40,437 bases of DNA from the NCBI GenBank assembly GCA_021798195.1, contig JAJZYH010000015.1, positions 1 to 40,437 of the forward strand, written 5' to 3'. Within the stretch, counting starts at the first letter, position 1. Each line of letters begins with the position of its first letter. Below the pieces are notes generated by a model. It saw only the letters and a list, made by a program, of their open reading frames with translations, did not search any database and was not told where the DNA came from. Positions 395-7,851 of this stretch are shown one piece after another. The stretch comes from Thermoplasmata archaeon. GTDB taxonomy: Archaea > Thermoplasmatota > Thermoplasmata > Lutacidiplasmatales > UBA184. Both the position numbers and the translations under genes were made by a program.

Positions 395-661
395 TCATCC
401 TTCCTCGTCATCCTCCCGGCCTTCCGCCATCTCCTCGTCGGCCGGATCGGAGCCATCGGGCGGTGTCGCGGGGTCGGCTTGCCAATCCCGGAAGGCGGGG
501 TCCCGCTGGAGGAGGTGGATCCGCACGCAATCCCGGTGGGCCGGTTCCCCGTTCCACGAGCTTATCTGGGCGGGGACGGTCAAGGGGCTGCGGCACAGCA
601 CGCAAAGCTGGGGCGGAGGGACGATCCACGAAGTCTTCCGGGCGGAGCGGGACGTGTCCAC
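395..661 (-). CDS. Small predicted zinc-binding protein
   Basis: An 88-residue protein if it starts at GTG 659-661, which has GAGGTC just upstream. An in-frame ATG at 695-697 would add 12 residues, but it overlaps the start codon of the divergent gene at 696. The N-terminal half has Cys20-x2-Cys23 and His42-x2-Cys45, a spacing that suggests one zinc site, and a Trp-Asn-Gly-Glu-Pro stretch before the His. The C-terminus is very acidic (runs of Glu and Asp), probably disordered. It recalls small archaeal CxxC/HxxC proteins such as DUF2175, but the match is from memory and weak. No function can be given. It is divergent to the eIF2B-like gene. Confidence 0.55.
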   Translation of the reverse strand: MDTSRSARKTSWIVPPPQLCVLCRSPLTVPAQISSWNGEPAHRDCVRIHLLQRDPAFRDWQADPATPPDGSDPADEEMAEGREDDEEG

Positions 662-695
662 GGCAGGACCTCGGGTTCTGTAGGGGTGACCACCC

Positions 696-1553
696 ATGAA
701 GCTATCGAAGGTGGGGCGGGGGGAACAGGATCCGCGAGACTTCCTGGCCCGGATTTCCCGGGACCGCACGTCGAGTGCGAGCCAACTCTTGCTTCAACTC
801 ATCCGTTCCCTGCGAGGGATCGCAGCGGGGCTCGGGACCCTTCCGGTCGACCGGCGCCAAGAGGAGGTCCGGCGCATCGCCCAGAATGTCCGTCGGGCAC
901 AACCGGCCATGGGGGCGTTCCAGAATCTGGGATGGGACCTCTCCCGACTCGCCGACGACGTCTCCCTCCCGCGGAAGTGGGTCCCACGGTTCCGTGCGTG
1001 CCTTGCGCGCTGGGAGCGTGAGATCGCCCGCGAGCGCACGGCGTTGGTCCGGGCCGCAGCCCGCGGATTCCCGGCGGGTCAGACCCTCCTCTGCATGAGC
1101 CGGAGCCAAACCCTGGTGGAGTTCCTCGGAGCACTCCCTCCGGCACGGCGCCCGCGTGCCATCCACGTGCTGGAGAGCCGACCCGGTGGGGAGGGCCGGG
1201 ACTTCGCCCGGGACCTCAAGAAGCTCGGGATGCGCGTCCGGGTCTTCCGGGACGACGACCTAGGGGCAGCCTTTGAAGGCGTGACCCTGGTCCTGCTCGG
1301 GGCCGACGCGGTCCTTCCGGACGGCTCCCTTGTCCACAAGGTTGGAACCCGCCGGGTGGCCGGGGCAGCATACCGGCGCGCGGTCCCCACATGGGTGGTC
1401 ACGGGATCCAGCAAGTGTCTCCGTCCCGGAGTGCGCCTCCCCTCGCCCCTCCCTCCGCTCTTCGACCGGACACCCGCCAAATGGGTGACGCTGGTCTGGA
1501 GGGAACGGGGACGCGCGAAGCCAATGATCCCGGTACCTCACGATGGAGAGTGA
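696..1553 (+). CDS. eIF2B-like protein (ribose-1,5-bisphosphate isomerase-like family)
   Basis: A 285-residue protein with an N-terminal helical region (about 1-120) and a C-terminal Rossmann-like eIF2B domain. Family signatures are LESRPGGEG (159-167), LLGADAVLPDG (200-210), HKVGT (214-218) and a late SSK. Cys133 and Asp204 fall where archaeal ribose-1,5-bisphosphate isomerases have their catalytic Cys and Asp, so an isomerase role in nucleoside/AMP salvage is as likely as an eIF2B-type regulatory role. GGGGTGA at 683-689 is a good ribosome-binding site for ATG 696. No RuBisCO or AMP phosphorylase gene is in the window to settle the choice. The stop is TGA. Confidence 0.8.
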   Translation: MKLSKVGRGEQDPRDFLARISRDRTSSASQLLLQLIRSLRGIAAGLGTLPVDRRQEEVRRIAQNVRRAQPAMGAFQNLGWDLSRLADDVSLPRKWVPRFRACLARWEREIARERTALVRAAARGFPAGQTLLCMSRSQTLVEFLGALPPARRPRAIHVLESRPGGEGRDFARDLKKLGMRVRVFRDDDLGAAFEGVTLVLLGADAVLPDGSLVHKVGTRRVAGAAYRRAVPTWVVTGSSKCLRPGVRLPSPLPPLFDRTPAKWVTLVWRERGRAKPMIPVPHDGE

Positions 1554-1614
1554 GGGAAGGCGACCGGCCGAAGTGGGAGACGGACCATACTGCCATCCCC
1601 TGCACCTCGATCCA

Positions 1615-2478
1615 TCACAGACAGGCACGGCCGCTCCCGGCGACCGCGCTCGCGTCCGTCGTGACGTTCGATTCGGCCCCTTCCAGGTAGGCCGTGGAAG
1701 TGCTCTCCAGAACGAAGGAGTCTCCCGGAACGATGTCCACGTTCGGGTAGAACCATCCCCCGGTCGCATTCACTTCCGAACCTTCCGAGGAAACGTTCCG
1801 CCATTGGCCATCGGGAGAAGTGCGAGCCAGACGCCAACCTCTCCCGTGGGGCTGGCATGTCAGGTTCTCCCAGGGGGAAGAACGGCACGACAAGGGTGTG
1901 AGAGGTTCGCCGCCCCCGGCGGTTCCCTTGTCACGTGTGGGCAACACCATCCAGGTCACGAGTCCCGAGGAATTATGGAAAATCGGAACCGGAGTCGACC
2001 AGTTCCCACTGGTGGTCCGGGGTCGGACCCGTAGACGGCAGGACGGGAGAAAGCAGACTCCTGTCGTGGATCCCAGCGAATACTCGATGTACCCGTCCGT
2101 CGCGTTGGACGATCGGCATACGCTCCTGTACCCCAGCGATGAACTGGACCCCGGTGCCATCCCACATGGAGTGATCAGAACGGGCCGATTCCGCCCGTGC
2201 GGAACAGATCCCCGGAAGGGGAGATCTCCGATATCTCCGCGCGTGTACACGGCCCTGAGGGGACCTGTATAATGTGCACAGAACTTCTGCCGGATGAGGT
2301 TCCAAGCCAACGGAGCGAACTGACCCGTGGTCAAGGAGAGATCCCGGTTGGGACCTGTCCAATGCAACCGGTCTCCTATGGGGTAGGGGTTGCCGGGACT
2401 TCCGTATGGAAAGAGGCCTTCCCCATGGGCCGTGTTGTTGAATATGGTCACGATGAGACTGGTGTTGGGCCGATCCAT
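1615..2478 (-). CDS. Exported-type protein of unknown function, lacking its own signal
   Basis: 287 codons from ATG 2476-2478, preceded by GGGAGGGG six bases upstream. The protein has about nine Asn-x-Ser/Thr sites (NTS, NNT, NAT, NWS, NSS, NLT, NVS, NAT, NVT), several Cys and many Gly/Ser/Pro, a composition typical of archaeal cell-surface domains, yet it has no signal peptide or membrane segment. It lies in the same frame as the membrane-anchored ORF 2584-2913 just upstream, separated only by two TGA codons (2584-2586 and 2509-2511). It may be the extracellular part of one interrupted gene, or a separate coupled gene. It ends with TGA 62 bases from the end of the convergent eIF2B-like gene. 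Function unknown. Confidence 0.5.
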   Translation of the reverse strand: MDRPNTSLIVTIFNNTAHGEGLFPYGSPGNPYPIGDRLHWTGPNRDLSLTTGQFAPLAWNLIRQKFCAHYTGPLRAVYTRGDIGDLPFRGSVPHGRNRPVLITPCGMAPGSSSSLGYRSVCRSSNATDGYIEYSLGSTTGVCFLPSCRLRVRPRTTSGNWSTPVPIFHNSSGLVTWMVLPTRDKGTAGGGEPLTPLSCRSSPWENLTCQPHGRGWRLARTSPDGQWRNVSSEGSEVNATGGWFYPNVDIVPGDSFVLESTSTAYLEGAESNVTTDASAVAGSGRACL

Positions 2479-2583
2479 GGAGATCCCCTCCCATAGGATC
2501 GAGGCCCTTCAGGTCCAAGGGGATGGCATTTCAGTCAGTGGAACCCCTCCTCCCAGATCGTCGAAGTTCGGACCCGGGGTCTG

Positions 2584-2913
2584 TCACAGGGAAGGCAGGA
2601 TGTCGGGTAGAAACGCCGGCTCCGGGTTTGCGACGCCCGTGACCGTGACCAAGATCCAGGGCCCTCCGGGTTGAGCCTCCGCGGTCTGATTCACCAGCTC
2701 CACGGCGAGCCCGGAGTCCAACCATGTGTGGTACGACGGGGGAGGCGGAGAGGCAGGGGGTTGCGTAGGAGGGGGCGGAGAGGACATTGGCGTGAGAAAC
2801 GCCCAGCTGGCCAAGAGGACGATGAACGCGATGGCAATGGTCGCCAGGAATAGCCATAATGTTGGAACCTCGGACGGACGGCGAAGGGCTTCCGTGCGCC
2901 GTAAGACGGTCAT
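2584..2913 (-). CDS. Short membrane-anchored exported protein
   Basis: 109 residues from ATG 2911-2913. An arginine-rich start (RRTEALRR) is followed by one strong hydrophobic segment at about 18-41, then a Pro-rich linker with PPPPTQPP and PPPPS blocks at about 45-60, then a short domain with an NQT glycosylation site. The layout (positive N-terminus, one helix, proline stalk, extracellular domain) indicates a type II or pilin-like anchored protein facing outside. AGGA lies five bases before the ATG. A weak AT-rich element (TAATCTAT, 2973-2980) could be the promoter. The reading frame continues after its TGA into 1615-2478, interrupted by one more TGA. Confidence 0.6.
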   Translation of the reverse strand: MTVLRRTEALRRPSEVPTLWLFLATIAIAFIVLLASWAFLTPMSSPPPPTQPPASPPPPSYHTWLDSGLAVELVNQTAEAQPGGPWILVTVTGVANPEPAFLPDILPSL

Positions 2914-3424
2914 TTGTCCTGCCCCATCCCTGGCAGCGGCATGATCCCCTGCCGAAGGGATTGGGAGCCCGCTAATCTATCCTGCGGTCTCCCTGGGCGG
3001 CGGACAGGGGCCCCCGACCCCAGGCGCTGCGCATTCCATGGCGTCTGCCTGCGACGTGGCCCGGATCGATTCTCGCGAAAAGTTTGCGAACCTGAGGGCT
3101 CGGCCTTGAGGACGGGAGAGAGCCCGTGGTCACGTCCTCCCCAGGTTCTCTTCGCCCCGTCCCAGAGTCTGCCGCCGGGGGACCCACGGACACGGAAACC
3201 CATCATGTGTGCATCGTAAGGAAGGTCGAAGGAGGGATGGCACCCGTCCCTTGAGGAATATGGATGCGATCCTGGACGGATTGGAATAGGCTCCGATCCC
3301 GCATTCGCTTCGGCGGCCCCCGTCCTCACACGGGAACGACGGCCGACGGGCGACCCAGCCAGATACGGTGGAAGCCTCCAGCCTACGATAGCTTGAAACT
3401 CCCCCAGGCTCCTCTCTCGAGCGG
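2914..3424. other. 510-base non-coding gap
   Basis: No convincing gene was seen on either strand: the open frames here have no family motif and no ribosome-binding site. The only elements noted are TAATCTAT at 2973-2980, a weak TATA candidate for the minus-strand gene at 2913, and AT-rich steps around 3385-3400 that may serve the HTH-CBS gene at 3425. No strong hairpin, repeat or tRNA was seen. Confidence 0.5.
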
Positions 3425-4006
3425 ATGGATTCCCTCGAGGAGATCCGACGGCGGCGGCAAGCGCTGGGGATACCGGTCCGCCAGGTGGCCCGTGCCGTGG
3501 GTCGCTCAGTGGCGACCATCTCGCGGATCGAGAGGGGGCGGATCCGCCCCTCCTACGATCTGGCCCAGTCGATCTTCCGGTTCCTTGAGGAGCAGGAGGG
3601 GAGCGCCGCACCCCTCCTCGTCGCCAAGGACGTCATGAATCCCCAGCCGGTCACGGTCATGGCGGACTCCCCCTTGAGTGCCGCCATCACGGTGATGGAA
3701 CGACATGGCTTCTCTCAGCTTCCGGTCTCGGACGGGGTACGGGTGGTGGGAGCCCTCTCGGAGGCCACGGTTCTCCGCGCGCTGGCCGACCCCAGGAACC
3801 GGAAGAGGAAGGTGCGGGAACTCAAGGAGCCCTCCTATCCACAGGTGGGGGAGGAGTTTCCGGCCGACCTGCTCGCGACCCTCCTCACACGCTACCCCGC
3901 GGTGCTGGTGACCCACGAAGGGGAACTCTCCGGTATCGTGACCAAGATCGACCTGATCCGGGGGCTGCGTCACGCCTCGCTTCGGCGACCCCCGGAAACC
4001 ACCTGA
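3425..4006 (+). CDS. HTH-CBS transcriptional regulator
   Basis: 193 residues. Residues 3-55 form an XRE/Cro-type helix-turn-helix (LGIPVRQVARAVGRSVATIS then IERGRIRPS). Two CBS motifs follow, at about 67-120 (DVMNPQPVTVMADSPLS) and 125-185 (ending SGIVTKIDLIRGL). This HTH-plus-CBS arrangement is a known archaeal regulator type; CBS pairs usually bind adenine nucleotides or SAM, so a DNA-binding factor that senses cell energy or a nucleotide is likely. The ligand and target are unknown. Its last 37 bases overlap the convergent P1 peptidase gene. No clear Shine-Dalgarno precedes ATG 3425, so it may be leaderless. Confidence 0.85.
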   Translation: MDSLEEIRRRRQALGIPVRQVARAVGRSVATISRIERGRIRPSYDLAQSIFRFLEEQEGSAAPLLVAKDVMNPQPVTVMADSPLSAAITVMERHGFSQLPVSDGVRVVGALSEATVLRALADPRNRKRKVRELKEPSYPQVGEEFPADLLATLLTRYPAVLVTHEGELSGIVTKIDLIRGLRHASLRRPPETT

Positions 4007-5073
4007 GCAGGGCTTTTCCCGCGGGAGTCCGACTCGCGTCCGGGATCCGGCGATGGGGGAGCCCCCTGGACCGCCCGCAAGAGGCTCACGCGGATCAGCT
4101 CGAGGCAGGGCACCGCCAGCGCGTCAACTGTCCGAAAGGACCTTGCGTCCCGAGTTTCGTCCCTCGGCGTCGGATCTCGCCTCCCGATCCCTCCCGTGGA
4201 GGCCACGAACACGGTGTCCCCATCCGTGGAGGTATGGGCGGGAACCACCACGCGGGCAATGCCATCGTGGGCATACGCCGCCAGCCGGAAGAGGCTCAGG
4301 CGGGGGAGGGCAAGATCGGTCACCACGATGGCAAGCGTCGTTCCCCGCTCCGTGGAGCCGACGAACGGCCTGCGGGAGCATTCCTTCCACACGCCCTCCC
4401 AGGTCAGGGCCCCGCCCCGGGAGGCTCGGGGAGAGGCTATCAAGGAACCCGAAAGCGGGTCCTGGAGGAACCCCACGGAGTTCGCGACCACGAGGACCCC
4501 CAGATGCCCGTGGCCCCCGATCGACAGGGAGGCGCTTCCCAGTCCTCCCCGGGAACTTCGCCCGGGCCCCAGCAGCTTGGCCACCTTCGCCCCCGCGCCC
4601 GCCCCCACGCTCCCCTGGATGACCGGCCGGCGAGAGGCCGTCCTCGTGGCACGATACCCCAGAGCGTCGTAATCCACGGTGCCCGGGTCCTGCCTTCCCA
4701 GGTCGAACAGGATGGCCCCGGAGATCCCGATGACCTTGGGCGCCCTCCCGAAGATGGGGCTCCCCTCCCCGCGCTCCCAGAGCGCCCTTCGGATGCCCCG
4801 ACTCGCATCCAGTCCATAGCTGCTCCCACCGGAAAGGAAGAGCGCCGAGAGCCACCCAAACCGCCCCAGCGGCCCCAGGGCATCCGTGTGATAGGTCCCG
4901 GGAGCACCTCCCCGCACCTCCGCCGCGGCTTGAACGGGCCGGTCAAAGGTCACCACGGTGACGCCGGTGCTCCCGGAGGCATCCTCCGCACTTCCCACCC
5001 GGACCCCTCGAACGTCCGTGAGCGAGTCCAGAGTTCCGCGTCTCATGTCCGGACCCATGCTCGCCGGTCGCAT
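3970..5073 (-). CDS. P1 family (DmpA/NylC-like) peptidase
   Basis: 367 residues. Family motifs are seen in order: LTDVRGVRVG (18-27), GGAPGT (55-60), LSGGSSYGLDA (80-90), ISGAILFDLG (117-126), GSVGAGAGA (154-162) and AHDGIARVVVPAHTSTDGD (268-286). RGTT at 243-246 lies where DmpA/NylC enzymes cut themselves to free an N-terminal Ser/Thr nucleophile, so autoprocessing before Thr245 is likely. Known relatives are aminopeptidases or amide hydrolases acting on N-terminal D-amino acids, beta-peptides or nylon oligomers; the substrate here cannot be told. ATG 5073 lies about 30 bases from the shared TATA box at 5100-5106, so the first Met may be leaderless; Met6 and Met10 are alternatives. It is divergent to the surface-protein gene. 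Confidence 0.85.
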   Translation of the reverse strand: MRPASMGPDMRRGTLDSLTDVRGVRVGSAEDASGSTGVTVVTFDRPVQAAAEVRGGAPGTYHTDALGPLGRFGWLSALFLSGGSSYGLDASRGIRRALWERGEGSPIFGRAPKVIGISGAILFDLGRQDPGTVDYDALGYRATRTASRRPVIQGSVGAGAGAKVAKLLGPGRSSRGGLGSASLSIGGHGHLGVLVVANSVGFLQDPLSGSLIASPRASRGGALTWEGVWKECSRRPFVGSTERGTTLAIVVTDLALPRLSLFRLAAYAHDGIARVVVPAHTSTDGDTVFVASTGGIGRRDPTPRDETRDARSFRTVDALAVPCLELIRVSLLRAVQGAPPSPDPGRESDSRGKSPAQVVSGGRRSEA

Positions 5074-5169: not shown

Positions 5170-7851
5170 ATGGGCCGACGAGCACGCCTCTCCATCTTCC
5201 TCCTGGCGATGGTGACCCTCCTCATCACCGGATCGACCTTGGGGGGAGAATTGGGCACGGACTATCCTCCTCGAGGCTTCGCTCCGCAGACCTCAGGAAA
5301 CCCGGAAGCCGTCGTTCCCGGCGCCCAGGGGAACCTTACGGTGGGCCCGGGCTCATGGCCCGCCTTCGAGGGAGGAGGAGGCCTCAACGGGACCAGTCCG
5401 GGTCCCGGTCCCTCCAACAATTCCACTTCGTGGAAGGTCTACGTGGGGGCGGGCGCGGCGTCTCCGCCCCAGGGCGCCGCCGATTCCGCGGTCATCTCCC
5501 GGGGCATCGTGTACGCCACCACTGGTGCGGGCCAGTCCCTCATCGCCCTGAACGAGAGTTCCGGGTCCCTCCTGTGGACCGTCTCCCTGCCCCTTCCATC
5601 CCAGGTGTCTCCCGTTCTCGTTGGAGGTAGGGTCGTGGTGGCCATGGGAAGCGCCAACGGATCCCTGGGGGCTCTCGCCGCATGGAATGCCTCCACGGGG
5701 TCGTTGGATTGGACCGCTACTCCTTCCCCCTCGGGGGCGCTCACCACGGCGCCCAACGTCGTGGATGGCCTGGTGGTGGTGGGCGGAGCCTCCGGGCACA
5801 TCTACGTGTACTCCGCCTCCACGGGACTTCTTGTGGAGCGAACCGATCTCTCCGGGACCCCGGTGCAGACCGTGGCCCTGGGTCCCCCGTCGCTCCCCCT
5901 GGCCCTCGTCAGTACCAACGAGGGGGGTCACGGGGTCCTCGACGGTTTCAACGTCACGTCCGGTGGCAATCTCTCGTGGACTCCCTTCCCCCTTTCCAAT
6001 CCCGTGGAGGCCGCACCGCTGGAGACCACATACTCCTGGCGACCCGGTCCCGGACCCGGAGGCGCCACGGTCGCCCTTCCCCTGGCACTGCTGGGAGACG
6101 ACGGCGGGAATGCCTCCCCCTTGAGCTATGTGTACGCATTCCTCACCACGCCGGAGAACGTCAATGGGGTCTCCCTTCCCCCGGGACTCCTCGTTCGGTG
6201 GAATGGGACCTCCGGCTCCGGAGGCTTCGCATCGGGAGCCGTACCCCTGGGCCAGGTGGGCACGAACCTCTCCTTCGGGCTTGTGGCCACCAATGGCTCG
6301 TTCGACATATTCCATCTGGATGTCAGTGGGAGCGGGACCCCCACCCTCAACCTGTACCAGAGCATCCGCGTGGGTCCGTCCTGGTCTCCCAACGATCCCA
6401 CCCCCGCCCCCGTGGTGGCCTCGGGCGCCATCGAGGTCCCCGCGGCCGATGGCATCGTCGTGTCCCTTTCCCGCTCCAACCTGACCGTCCTCTGGCGCGC
6501 CCAGCTGGGAGCCGCGGTCCTCGCCACGCCGTCGGTGGCCTCCGGCGCCCTCTTCGTCCTGGATGCAAAGGGGGTCTTGAGCGCCCTGGGCGGCCCCCTG
6601 GCGTTCCCCCCGGCCGTCCGGCTCCTCCTGAGCGTGAGTTCCGCGCAGTGGGTGGTCTCCGGGGGGACCCTTCCGTTCACCCTCTCGGCAGATGTGCTGG
6701 AACCCAACGGTCTCCTCGCCCCCGCGGCCAACGGGACAGCCTCGGTGTTCGCTTCCAAGGGGAACGTCTCCGGGTCCCCCGCCACCCTTTCCGCGCAGGG
6801 ACGTGCCTCCTTCAACCTCTCCGCCCCCACGGTCACGGGAAGCACCAACATCTCGGTCATCTCCACCGTGGTCTGGCAGGGAATGGCCAACTCCACCACG
6901 TTCGTGGTCGTGGCTCTGCCCGCCAACGAGACCCATTCGACCCCCCTCACCGTGGAGCCCCTGGGCTTCCTACCCACTTCGATGGCGCCCGACGAGTCCA
7001 TCCCGCTCTCCTTCCTGGTCGCGGCGGGGACCTCCGGCGGACCCGTCCCGGAGGTCGCGGTGACCTTCCAGGCCTTCGGGGGGACCGTCTCGCGGACGGC
7101 CACGGAGACGAACGCGTCGGGGATCGCCAACACCACGTTCACATCGGAGCGATCCAGCACCCTCGCCGCAGCGGGGGTCACCGTGTCCGCCGAAGCCCTG
7201 GGCTATCCCAGTGGAAGCTACACGTGGCGCGTGACCGTGGCCGCGGTTCCCCTCCTCGTCCCTGCGGTGTCGCCTCCGGCCCTCCTGCTCGTTGCCGGCT
7301 CCCAGGAAATCTTCCAGATCGAGGTGAACTCCTCGTCGGGCGGACCCGTCCCCTTTGCCGTGGTGAACCTGGAGGATCCCTCAGTGGGGGGATCCCTCTC
7401 CGTGCTGGGCGCCCTCACCAACTCCTCCGGGCGGGTCCTGTTGAGCTACCGGGCCCCCGGATCGGTCCCCGCGCCGGGCGTGGCAAGCGGCATCCCGGTC
7501 ACCATATCGGCCTCGGGATTCCTCAGCGATTCCTTCGAGATCCCCCTCACGGTGGTGCCCAACTCCTCCGGGTCCCCGAACGCCAACGGGTCGGGGGGCC
7601 TCTCCATGGGGCTCATCCCCGGGCTCCCCGGCTGGACCGATGGGGTGATCGTGGGGATCCTGACCATCGTGATCGGGGTGCTCCTCTTCCGTCTGTGGCG
7701 CCCCCGCCGGCCCCGGCCCCCGGTTCCGGTATGGGAGGAGGCCTCGACCTCCCCGGAGCCCGGAGGAGGATCCCCCCCCGGAGCGCCGGGAGGCGCGGAG
7801 GACCCTGCATTGATCCCGTGGAGGGGACCGCCGGACCCGCCCGACCCGTAG
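5170..7851 (+). CDS. Large surface-anchored beta-propeller/Ig-like protein
   Basis: 893 residues. A basic start (MGRRARLS) and a hydrophobic stretch to about residue 25 form a signal peptide. Residues about 85-480 carry PQQ/propeller-like repeats, seen as recurring phrases of the type LIALNESSGSLLWT, LAAWNASTGSLDWT and IYVYSAS. Residues about 490-810 look like two or three Ig-like (invasin/big-1 type) beta domains with VPEVAVTF and VPFAVVNL motifs. A single membrane helix lies at about 825-844, followed by a basic stop and a Pro-rich cytoplasmic tail. Many Asn-x-Ser/Thr sites suggest N-glycosylation. GGGAGGT at 5157-5163 supports ATG 5170 over the earlier in-frame Mets. It is probably a cell-envelope adhesin or structural protein. 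Confidence 0.8.
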   Translation: MGRRARLSIFLLAMVTLLITGSTLGGELGTDYPPRGFAPQTSGNPEAVVPGAQGNLTVGPGSWPAFEGGGGLNGTSPGPGPSNNSTSWKVYVGAGAASPPQGAADSAVISRGIVYATTGAGQSLIALNESSGSLLWTVSLPLPSQVSPVLVGGRVVVAMGSANGSLGALAAWNASTGSLDWTATPSPSGALTTAPNVVDGLVVVGGASGHIYVYSASTGLLVERTDLSGTPVQTVALGPPSLPLALVSTNEGGHGVLDGFNVTSGGNLSWTPFPLSNPVEAAPLETTYSWRPGPGPGGATVALPLALLGDDGGNASPLSYVYAFLTTPENVNGVSLPPGLLVRWNGTSGSGGFASGAVPLGQVGTNLSFGLVATNGSFDIFHLDVSGSGTPTLNLYQSIRVGPSWSPNDPTPAPVVASGAIEVPAADGIVVSLSRSNLTVLWRAQLGAAVLATPSVASGALFVLDAKGVLSALGGPLAFPPAVRLLLSVSSAQWVVSGGTLPFTLSADVLEPNGLLAPAANGTASVFASKGNVSGSPATLSAQGRASFNLSAPTVTGSTNISVISTVVWQGMANSTTFVVVALPANETHSTPLTVEPLGFLPTSMAPDESIPLSFLVAAGTSGGPVPEVAVTFQAFGGTVSRTATETNASGIANTTFTSERSSTLAAAGVTVSAEALGYPSGSYTWRVTVAAVPLLVPAVSPPALLLVAGSQEIFQIEVNSSSGGPVPFAVVNLEDPSVGGSLSVLGALTNSSGRVLLSYRAPGSVPAPGVASGIPVTISASGFLSDSFEIPLTVVPNSSGSPNANGSGGLSMGLIPGLPGWTDGVIVGILTIVIGVLLFRLWRPRRPRPPVPVWEEASTSPEPGGGSPPGAPGGAEDPALIPWRGPPDPPDP

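Follow-up and report, generated by a model that had tools for sequence, protein, structure and literature searches.

Two in-frame TGA codons in a Thermoplasmata gene most probably mark a recently inactivated duplicate of a membrane-anchored protein gene

Do two in-frame TGA codons in an archaeal reading frame point to readthrough, to two coupled genes or to a pseudogene? The window (the whole stretch of DNA analysed, 40,437 nucleotides, contig C73 of its genome) raises this question on its minus strand, where two ORFs lie in one frame and are split solely by TGA-1 (2586-2584) and TGA-2 (2511-2509). The 5′ part, ORF1 (2584-2913), encodes 109 aa comprising a TM-like anchor and the start of an outer domain, and the 3′ part, ORF2 (1615-2478), encodes 287 aa. 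Both ORFs and both stops are where a preliminary description of the locus had placed them. The same description spoke of a 24-codon spacer: 24 codons do separate the TGAs (2583-2512), but the stretch that it delimited (2479-2583) is 35 codons long and includes TGA-2. Given the base composition, approximately 11.7 stops are expected in 433 random codons, against the two present, and the chance of finding no stop in 287 random codons is 0.0004. This shortage of stops implies that the window gene is or was coding sequence. Of the three explanations offered in the preliminary description, the pseudogene is the best supported, while the ribosome-binding site behind its lean toward two genes is weak evidence.

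The genome (G000; 1.75 Mb in 73 contigs, 95.69% complete) contains an intact paralogue, C60:2079-3371, encoding 431 aa in a single frame. Its alignment to the window gene runs from the anchor to the C-terminus, across ORF1, the inter-stop segment and ORF2, with the net frame unchanged, so that the one-frame layout is not a product of chance. ORF1 is 53% identical to the paralogue over residues 15-101; the inter-stop segment opens directly after TGA-1 with Gln-Thr-Pro-Gly-Pro, matching the paralogue, and is homologous coding sequence; and the ATG at 2478, where ORF2 starts, aligns to an internal Met of the paralogue and is thus inherited. At the DNA level, the alignment of both copies revealed no net shift and no uncompensated frameshift, although it is too noisy to reveal single compensated cases. 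The paralogue begins 25 bp behind a 443-aa ORF (C60:722-2053) with a weak fn3 match, below cut-off, and an ISL3-type transposase ORF lies nearby at C60:143-637 (DDE_Tnp_ISL3, 5.4e-21).

To place the stops within the protein we used an alignment of ten outgroups, the paralogue and the window copy, in which the protein starts of the outgroups were chosen by us. Both TGAs fall within conserved coding sequence: TGA-1 takes the place of a Cys found in the paralogue and 9/10 outgroups, and TGA-2 that of a Ser found in the paralogue and, again, 9/10 outgroups. Trp or Arg, which the preliminary description had proposed to look for in homologues at these sites, can be rejected, since the homologues carry Cys and Ser. 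The surroundings of TGA-2 are altered too (Gly to Arg, Pro to Ile), the Arg codon directly after the stop (2508-2506) standing at a position that is Gly in the paralogue and in all ten outgroups. Further downstream, a Gly codon (2394-2392) replaces a second conserved Cys, present in the paralogue and 8/10 outgroups.

A profile built from both copies, and hence including the window gene, recovers the latter as a single match (1618-2913) with two TGAs inside, and has matches in 18 of the 103 genomes of the taxonomic family, its own included. We then searched 400 genomes of the class with a second profile made from ten full-length relatives and the paralogue, scoring at most four candidates per genome, and found matches in 57 of them at an E-value of 1e-6 or better. 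Defining as full-length those matches that start at model position 24 or earlier and reach 420 or later, 15 are found among those listed: the paralogue and 13 further ones are free of stops, and only the window copy is interrupted, by its two stops. This indicates that the ancestral state was one gene and not two. Six shorter homologues were considered as parallel cases of interruption and rejected: they have a single stop at the end of the N domain (model position ~276-282) and not at the window TGA sites, a placement which suggests that it is their natural end. The window copy had no close orthologue in our searches. A single-sequence search for ORF2 in 101 genomes, its own included, returned only its own genome and one weak match, and a two-sequence alignment scanned against collections of genome contigs and viral contigs gave no matches. 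Eleven loci of relatives belong to assemblies labelled Thermoplasmata archaeon. Among these assemblies is UBA184, whose family gene is identical to that of a genome (G058) from the window's own taxonomic family; PMC9287336 places UBA184 in one order and family with Lutacidiplasmatales genomes, making this group the most likely origin of the window.

In family members, an N-terminal anchor precedes a Cys-bearing N domain and, after it, ~115 residues that form a C domain. The N domain is also found alone, in the six shorter homologues ending near model position 280, and the C domain occurs alone behind an anchor, as in five short anchored proteins (L162, L163, L164, L165 and L043; open frames of 210-288 aa). 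By eye, this C domain looks like the body of a type IV archaeal pilin that the genome of the window encodes at C60:11493-12116 (Pilin_N 8.9e-07), and the profile link between them is weak (E 0.084). At cut-off, neither copy matches a model in Pfam or NCBIfam. The structure of a relative, modelled with 12 sequences, was predicted with middling confidence (mean pLDDT 62.3, pTM 0.59) and had no match in the PDB at an E-value of 0.001 or better, and for this reason we draw no function from it. We regard the family as single-gene, membrane-anchored and probably exported proteins of Thermoplasmata.

If the window copy has lost its function, a relaxation of constraint compared to the paralogue is to be expected. 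In the maximum-likelihood protein tree both copies are sisters (support: 100), with a branch of 0.33 for the paralogue and 1.03 for the window copy. Scored with a profile made solely from the ten outgroups, the paralogue reaches 166.8 bits vs 71.6 bits for the window copy. Of 98 columns conserved in at least 7/10 outgroups, 55 still show the conserved residue in the paralogue vs 44 in the window copy (19 in the paralogue only and 8 in the window copy only), and at the 90% level of conservation the paralogue and the window copy agree at 28/40 and 23/40 columns, respectively. In relative-rate comparisons, 10/10 outgroups have more residues in common with the paralogue than with the window copy. 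The longer branch, the lower profile score and the larger loss of conserved residues all speak for relaxed constraint on the window copy. Two observations speak against it: the one-sided relative-rate tests give p<0.05 for 5/10 outgroups, the other 5/10 not falling below 0.05, and both copies retain 14 of the 22 residues that are invariant across the ten outgroups. Given this equality, we consider the loss of conserved residues moderate.

The pairwise dN/dS between the window copy and the paralogue is 0.36 (bootstrap 0.26-0.46) and is similar in ORF1 (0.39), the inter-stop segment (0.36) and ORF2 (0.34), so that selection must have acted on the frame during most of its past. A low dN/dS is equally expected if the frame is still translated, and this value does not decide between a pseudogene and a translated gene. 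In the window gene, a neutral expectation is ~30 stops per substitution per site, and two stops fit ~0.07 substitutions per site, which is small compared to the dS of 1.26 to the paralogue. From these sequence-based estimates, inactivation looks recent. At such an age, the probability that ORF2 would be free of stops is near 0.25. We have therefore rejected the idea that an open ORF2 proves a gene, as such openness is expected about one time in four; ORF2 would still be open because little time has elapsed, and its being a gene is not needed to explain it.

We sought to elucidate if the genomic neighbourhood tells how the window copy came to its present site. The broken gene lies together with an IF-2B family gene (696-1553, plus strand; PF01008, 9.3e-24) in a segment (696-3424) flanked on the right by an HTH-CBS gene (3425-4006, plus strand; PF00571, PF13560, PF01381) and on the left by a small conserved ORF (395-769, minus strand) without a Pfam match, which overlaps the called start of the IF-2B gene. 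The HTH-CBS gene is found in 77/103 genomes, its own included, and in 29 relatives its locus had 1.5-kb flanks that allowed a comparison. In 21 of these 29, the HTH-CBS gene and the small-ORF homologue are divergently oriented neighbours with a gap of 57-352 bp, while in the window they are ~2.7 kb apart and enclose both the IF-2B gene and the broken gene, suggesting an insertion. In the other eight relatives the small ORF was not found near the HTH-CBS gene. These eight include the seven whose HTH-CBS gene is most similar (66-73% identity), in which the small ORF was not found within 7-10 kb around it either. The argument for an insertion is weakened accordingly, since it holds in 21/29 relatives but not in these seven. 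Besides, in 4/7 (one genus) the 3 kb upstream of the HTH-CBS gene encode a short C-domain protein in the same orientation, so that a family gene could be old at this place. An insertion of the segment at its present site is thus partly supported by the gene order. It is a side argument, and its weakening leaves the odds of a pseudogene the same. Further along the window, a gene for a large protein with PQQ beta-propeller repeats (5170-7851; PQQ_2 2.5e-17), with an Ig-like match below cut-off, adjoins a Peptidase_S58 gene (3970-5073).

Taken together, the intact paralogue, the uninterrupted full-length relatives, the position of the stops and the faster evolution of this copy lead us to conclude that the window copy is most probably a recently inactivated duplicate, i.e.: a pseudogene, of a gene from this membrane-anchored family. 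The duplicate copy would have lost its usefulness and drifted, and would then have acquired two nonsense mutations and, so far, no frameshift; it may have reached its present site by insertion. Any translation would stop after a 109-aa anchored stub. In prokaryotes, duplicated pseudogenes that carry premature stops are a familiar kind, and the window copy is like them in being a second copy with an intact paralogue, nonsense mutations at conserved positions, faster evolution and a frame that is mostly kept. Nothing essential sets it apart from them: it is a young case without frameshifts. Among the observations that count against this reading are the dN/dS of 0.36 to the paralogue and the absence of an uncompensated frameshift. 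For bacterial genes, Belinky et al., 2021 (PMC7918605) argue that many of the in-frame stops do not denote pseudogenes.

That the locus arose as two separate genes with an unrelated spacer is refuted by the homology of the inter-stop segment and by the 14 other listed full-length matches that are uninterrupted. A secondary functional split is a different matter: an anchored stub could be made together with a second protein started at the ATG at 2478, by translational coupling or from its own Shine-Dalgarno (SD) sequence. The preliminary description took a strong ribosome-binding site before this ATG as favouring two genes. A GGAGG (2491-2487) is indeed present 8 nt ahead of it, but the argument is weak. 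Across both strands of the window, 94 of 966 ATGs have a complementary match to the anti-SD of at least 5 nt at -15 to -4, i.e. as long or longer, and four of the five bases of the GGAGG belong to conserved Trp-Glu codons (TGG GAG, followed by GGG). The paralogue has TGGGAG 9 nt ahead of its equivalent internal ATG and does not reach a 5-nt match there, a difference that speaks in favour of the split, as do the 287 open codons of ORF2 and its dN/dS of 0.34. Against it, the ATG is an inherited internal Met and the frame that it opens starts without an anchor; no homologue with the same split is present among the listed matches; and the break lies within the N domain, found on its own in the six shorter homologues, at a low-confidence stretch of the structure model between two predicted strands. 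Conserved residues have been lost in the ORF2 portion as well (12 kept by the paralogue only vs 6 by the window copy only, at the 70% level). We consider a functional split unlikely.

An error of sequencing or assembly, with a true gene that is intact, might be suspected in a genome fragmented into 73 contigs. It would require that two separate substitutions are both wrong, and would leave unexplained the wider divergence of the window copy from the family, making this explanation very unlikely.

Readthrough of UGA would yield a full-length exported protein, either with selenocysteine at TGA-1 or through near-cognate or suppressor decoding at both stops. Selenoproteins have an in-frame UGA that aligns with Cys in homologues, and selenocysteine decoding exists in archaea. 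The window gene is like them at TGA-1, aligned to a conserved Cys, and differs from them in that TGA-2 aligns to Ser amid changed neighbours, and in that another conserved Cys is lost. Nor was the machinery found above cut-off in a search that covered tRNA-Sec and SelD in this 95.69% complete genome. No tRNA-Sec scored above the Rfam cut-off (the control did so in 5/14 genomes), and three weaker matches are one tRNA-Cys and two tRNA-Ser. No SelD was above cut-off (control: 2/14), the two weaker matches scoring 61.7 and 41.9 bits vs 125. As for a suppressor, 30 of 31 tRNA loci were typed with an intron search and none of them carries a UCA anticodon; the set is incomplete, without tRNAs for Trp, Tyr, His and Asn. 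In agreement with the preliminary description, TGA is a normal stop in the neighbourhood, ending the IF-2B gene (1551-1553) and the HTH-CBS gene (4004-4006), and the paralogue ends in TGA too; its view that genome-wide recoding is unlikely agrees with these genes, in which we found no sign of it.

What remains in favour of readthrough is that the frame and a low dN/dS persist between and beyond the stops. In-frame stops under purifying selection have been proposed as readthrough (PMC7918605), and those stops resemble the window gene in their dN/dS below 1. The focus of that study is on stops common to orthologues, while we found no homologue with the stop of the window gene: none of the listed full-length homologues, none of them a close orthologue, has one at the same site. 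Readthrough would be unusual for archaea if true, and we regard it as highly improbable. The least probable proposal of all is its regulatory version, in which reading through two UGAs, 25 codons apart, would tune how much of an exported surface protein is made, the truncated anchored stub being the main product.

An apparent candidate for recoding is hence better accounted for by the intact paralogue elsewhere in its genome. Beyond this locus, the analysis reveals, through two copies unmatched in Pfam and NCBIfam at cut-off, a Thermoplasmata family of anchored, probably exported proteins.
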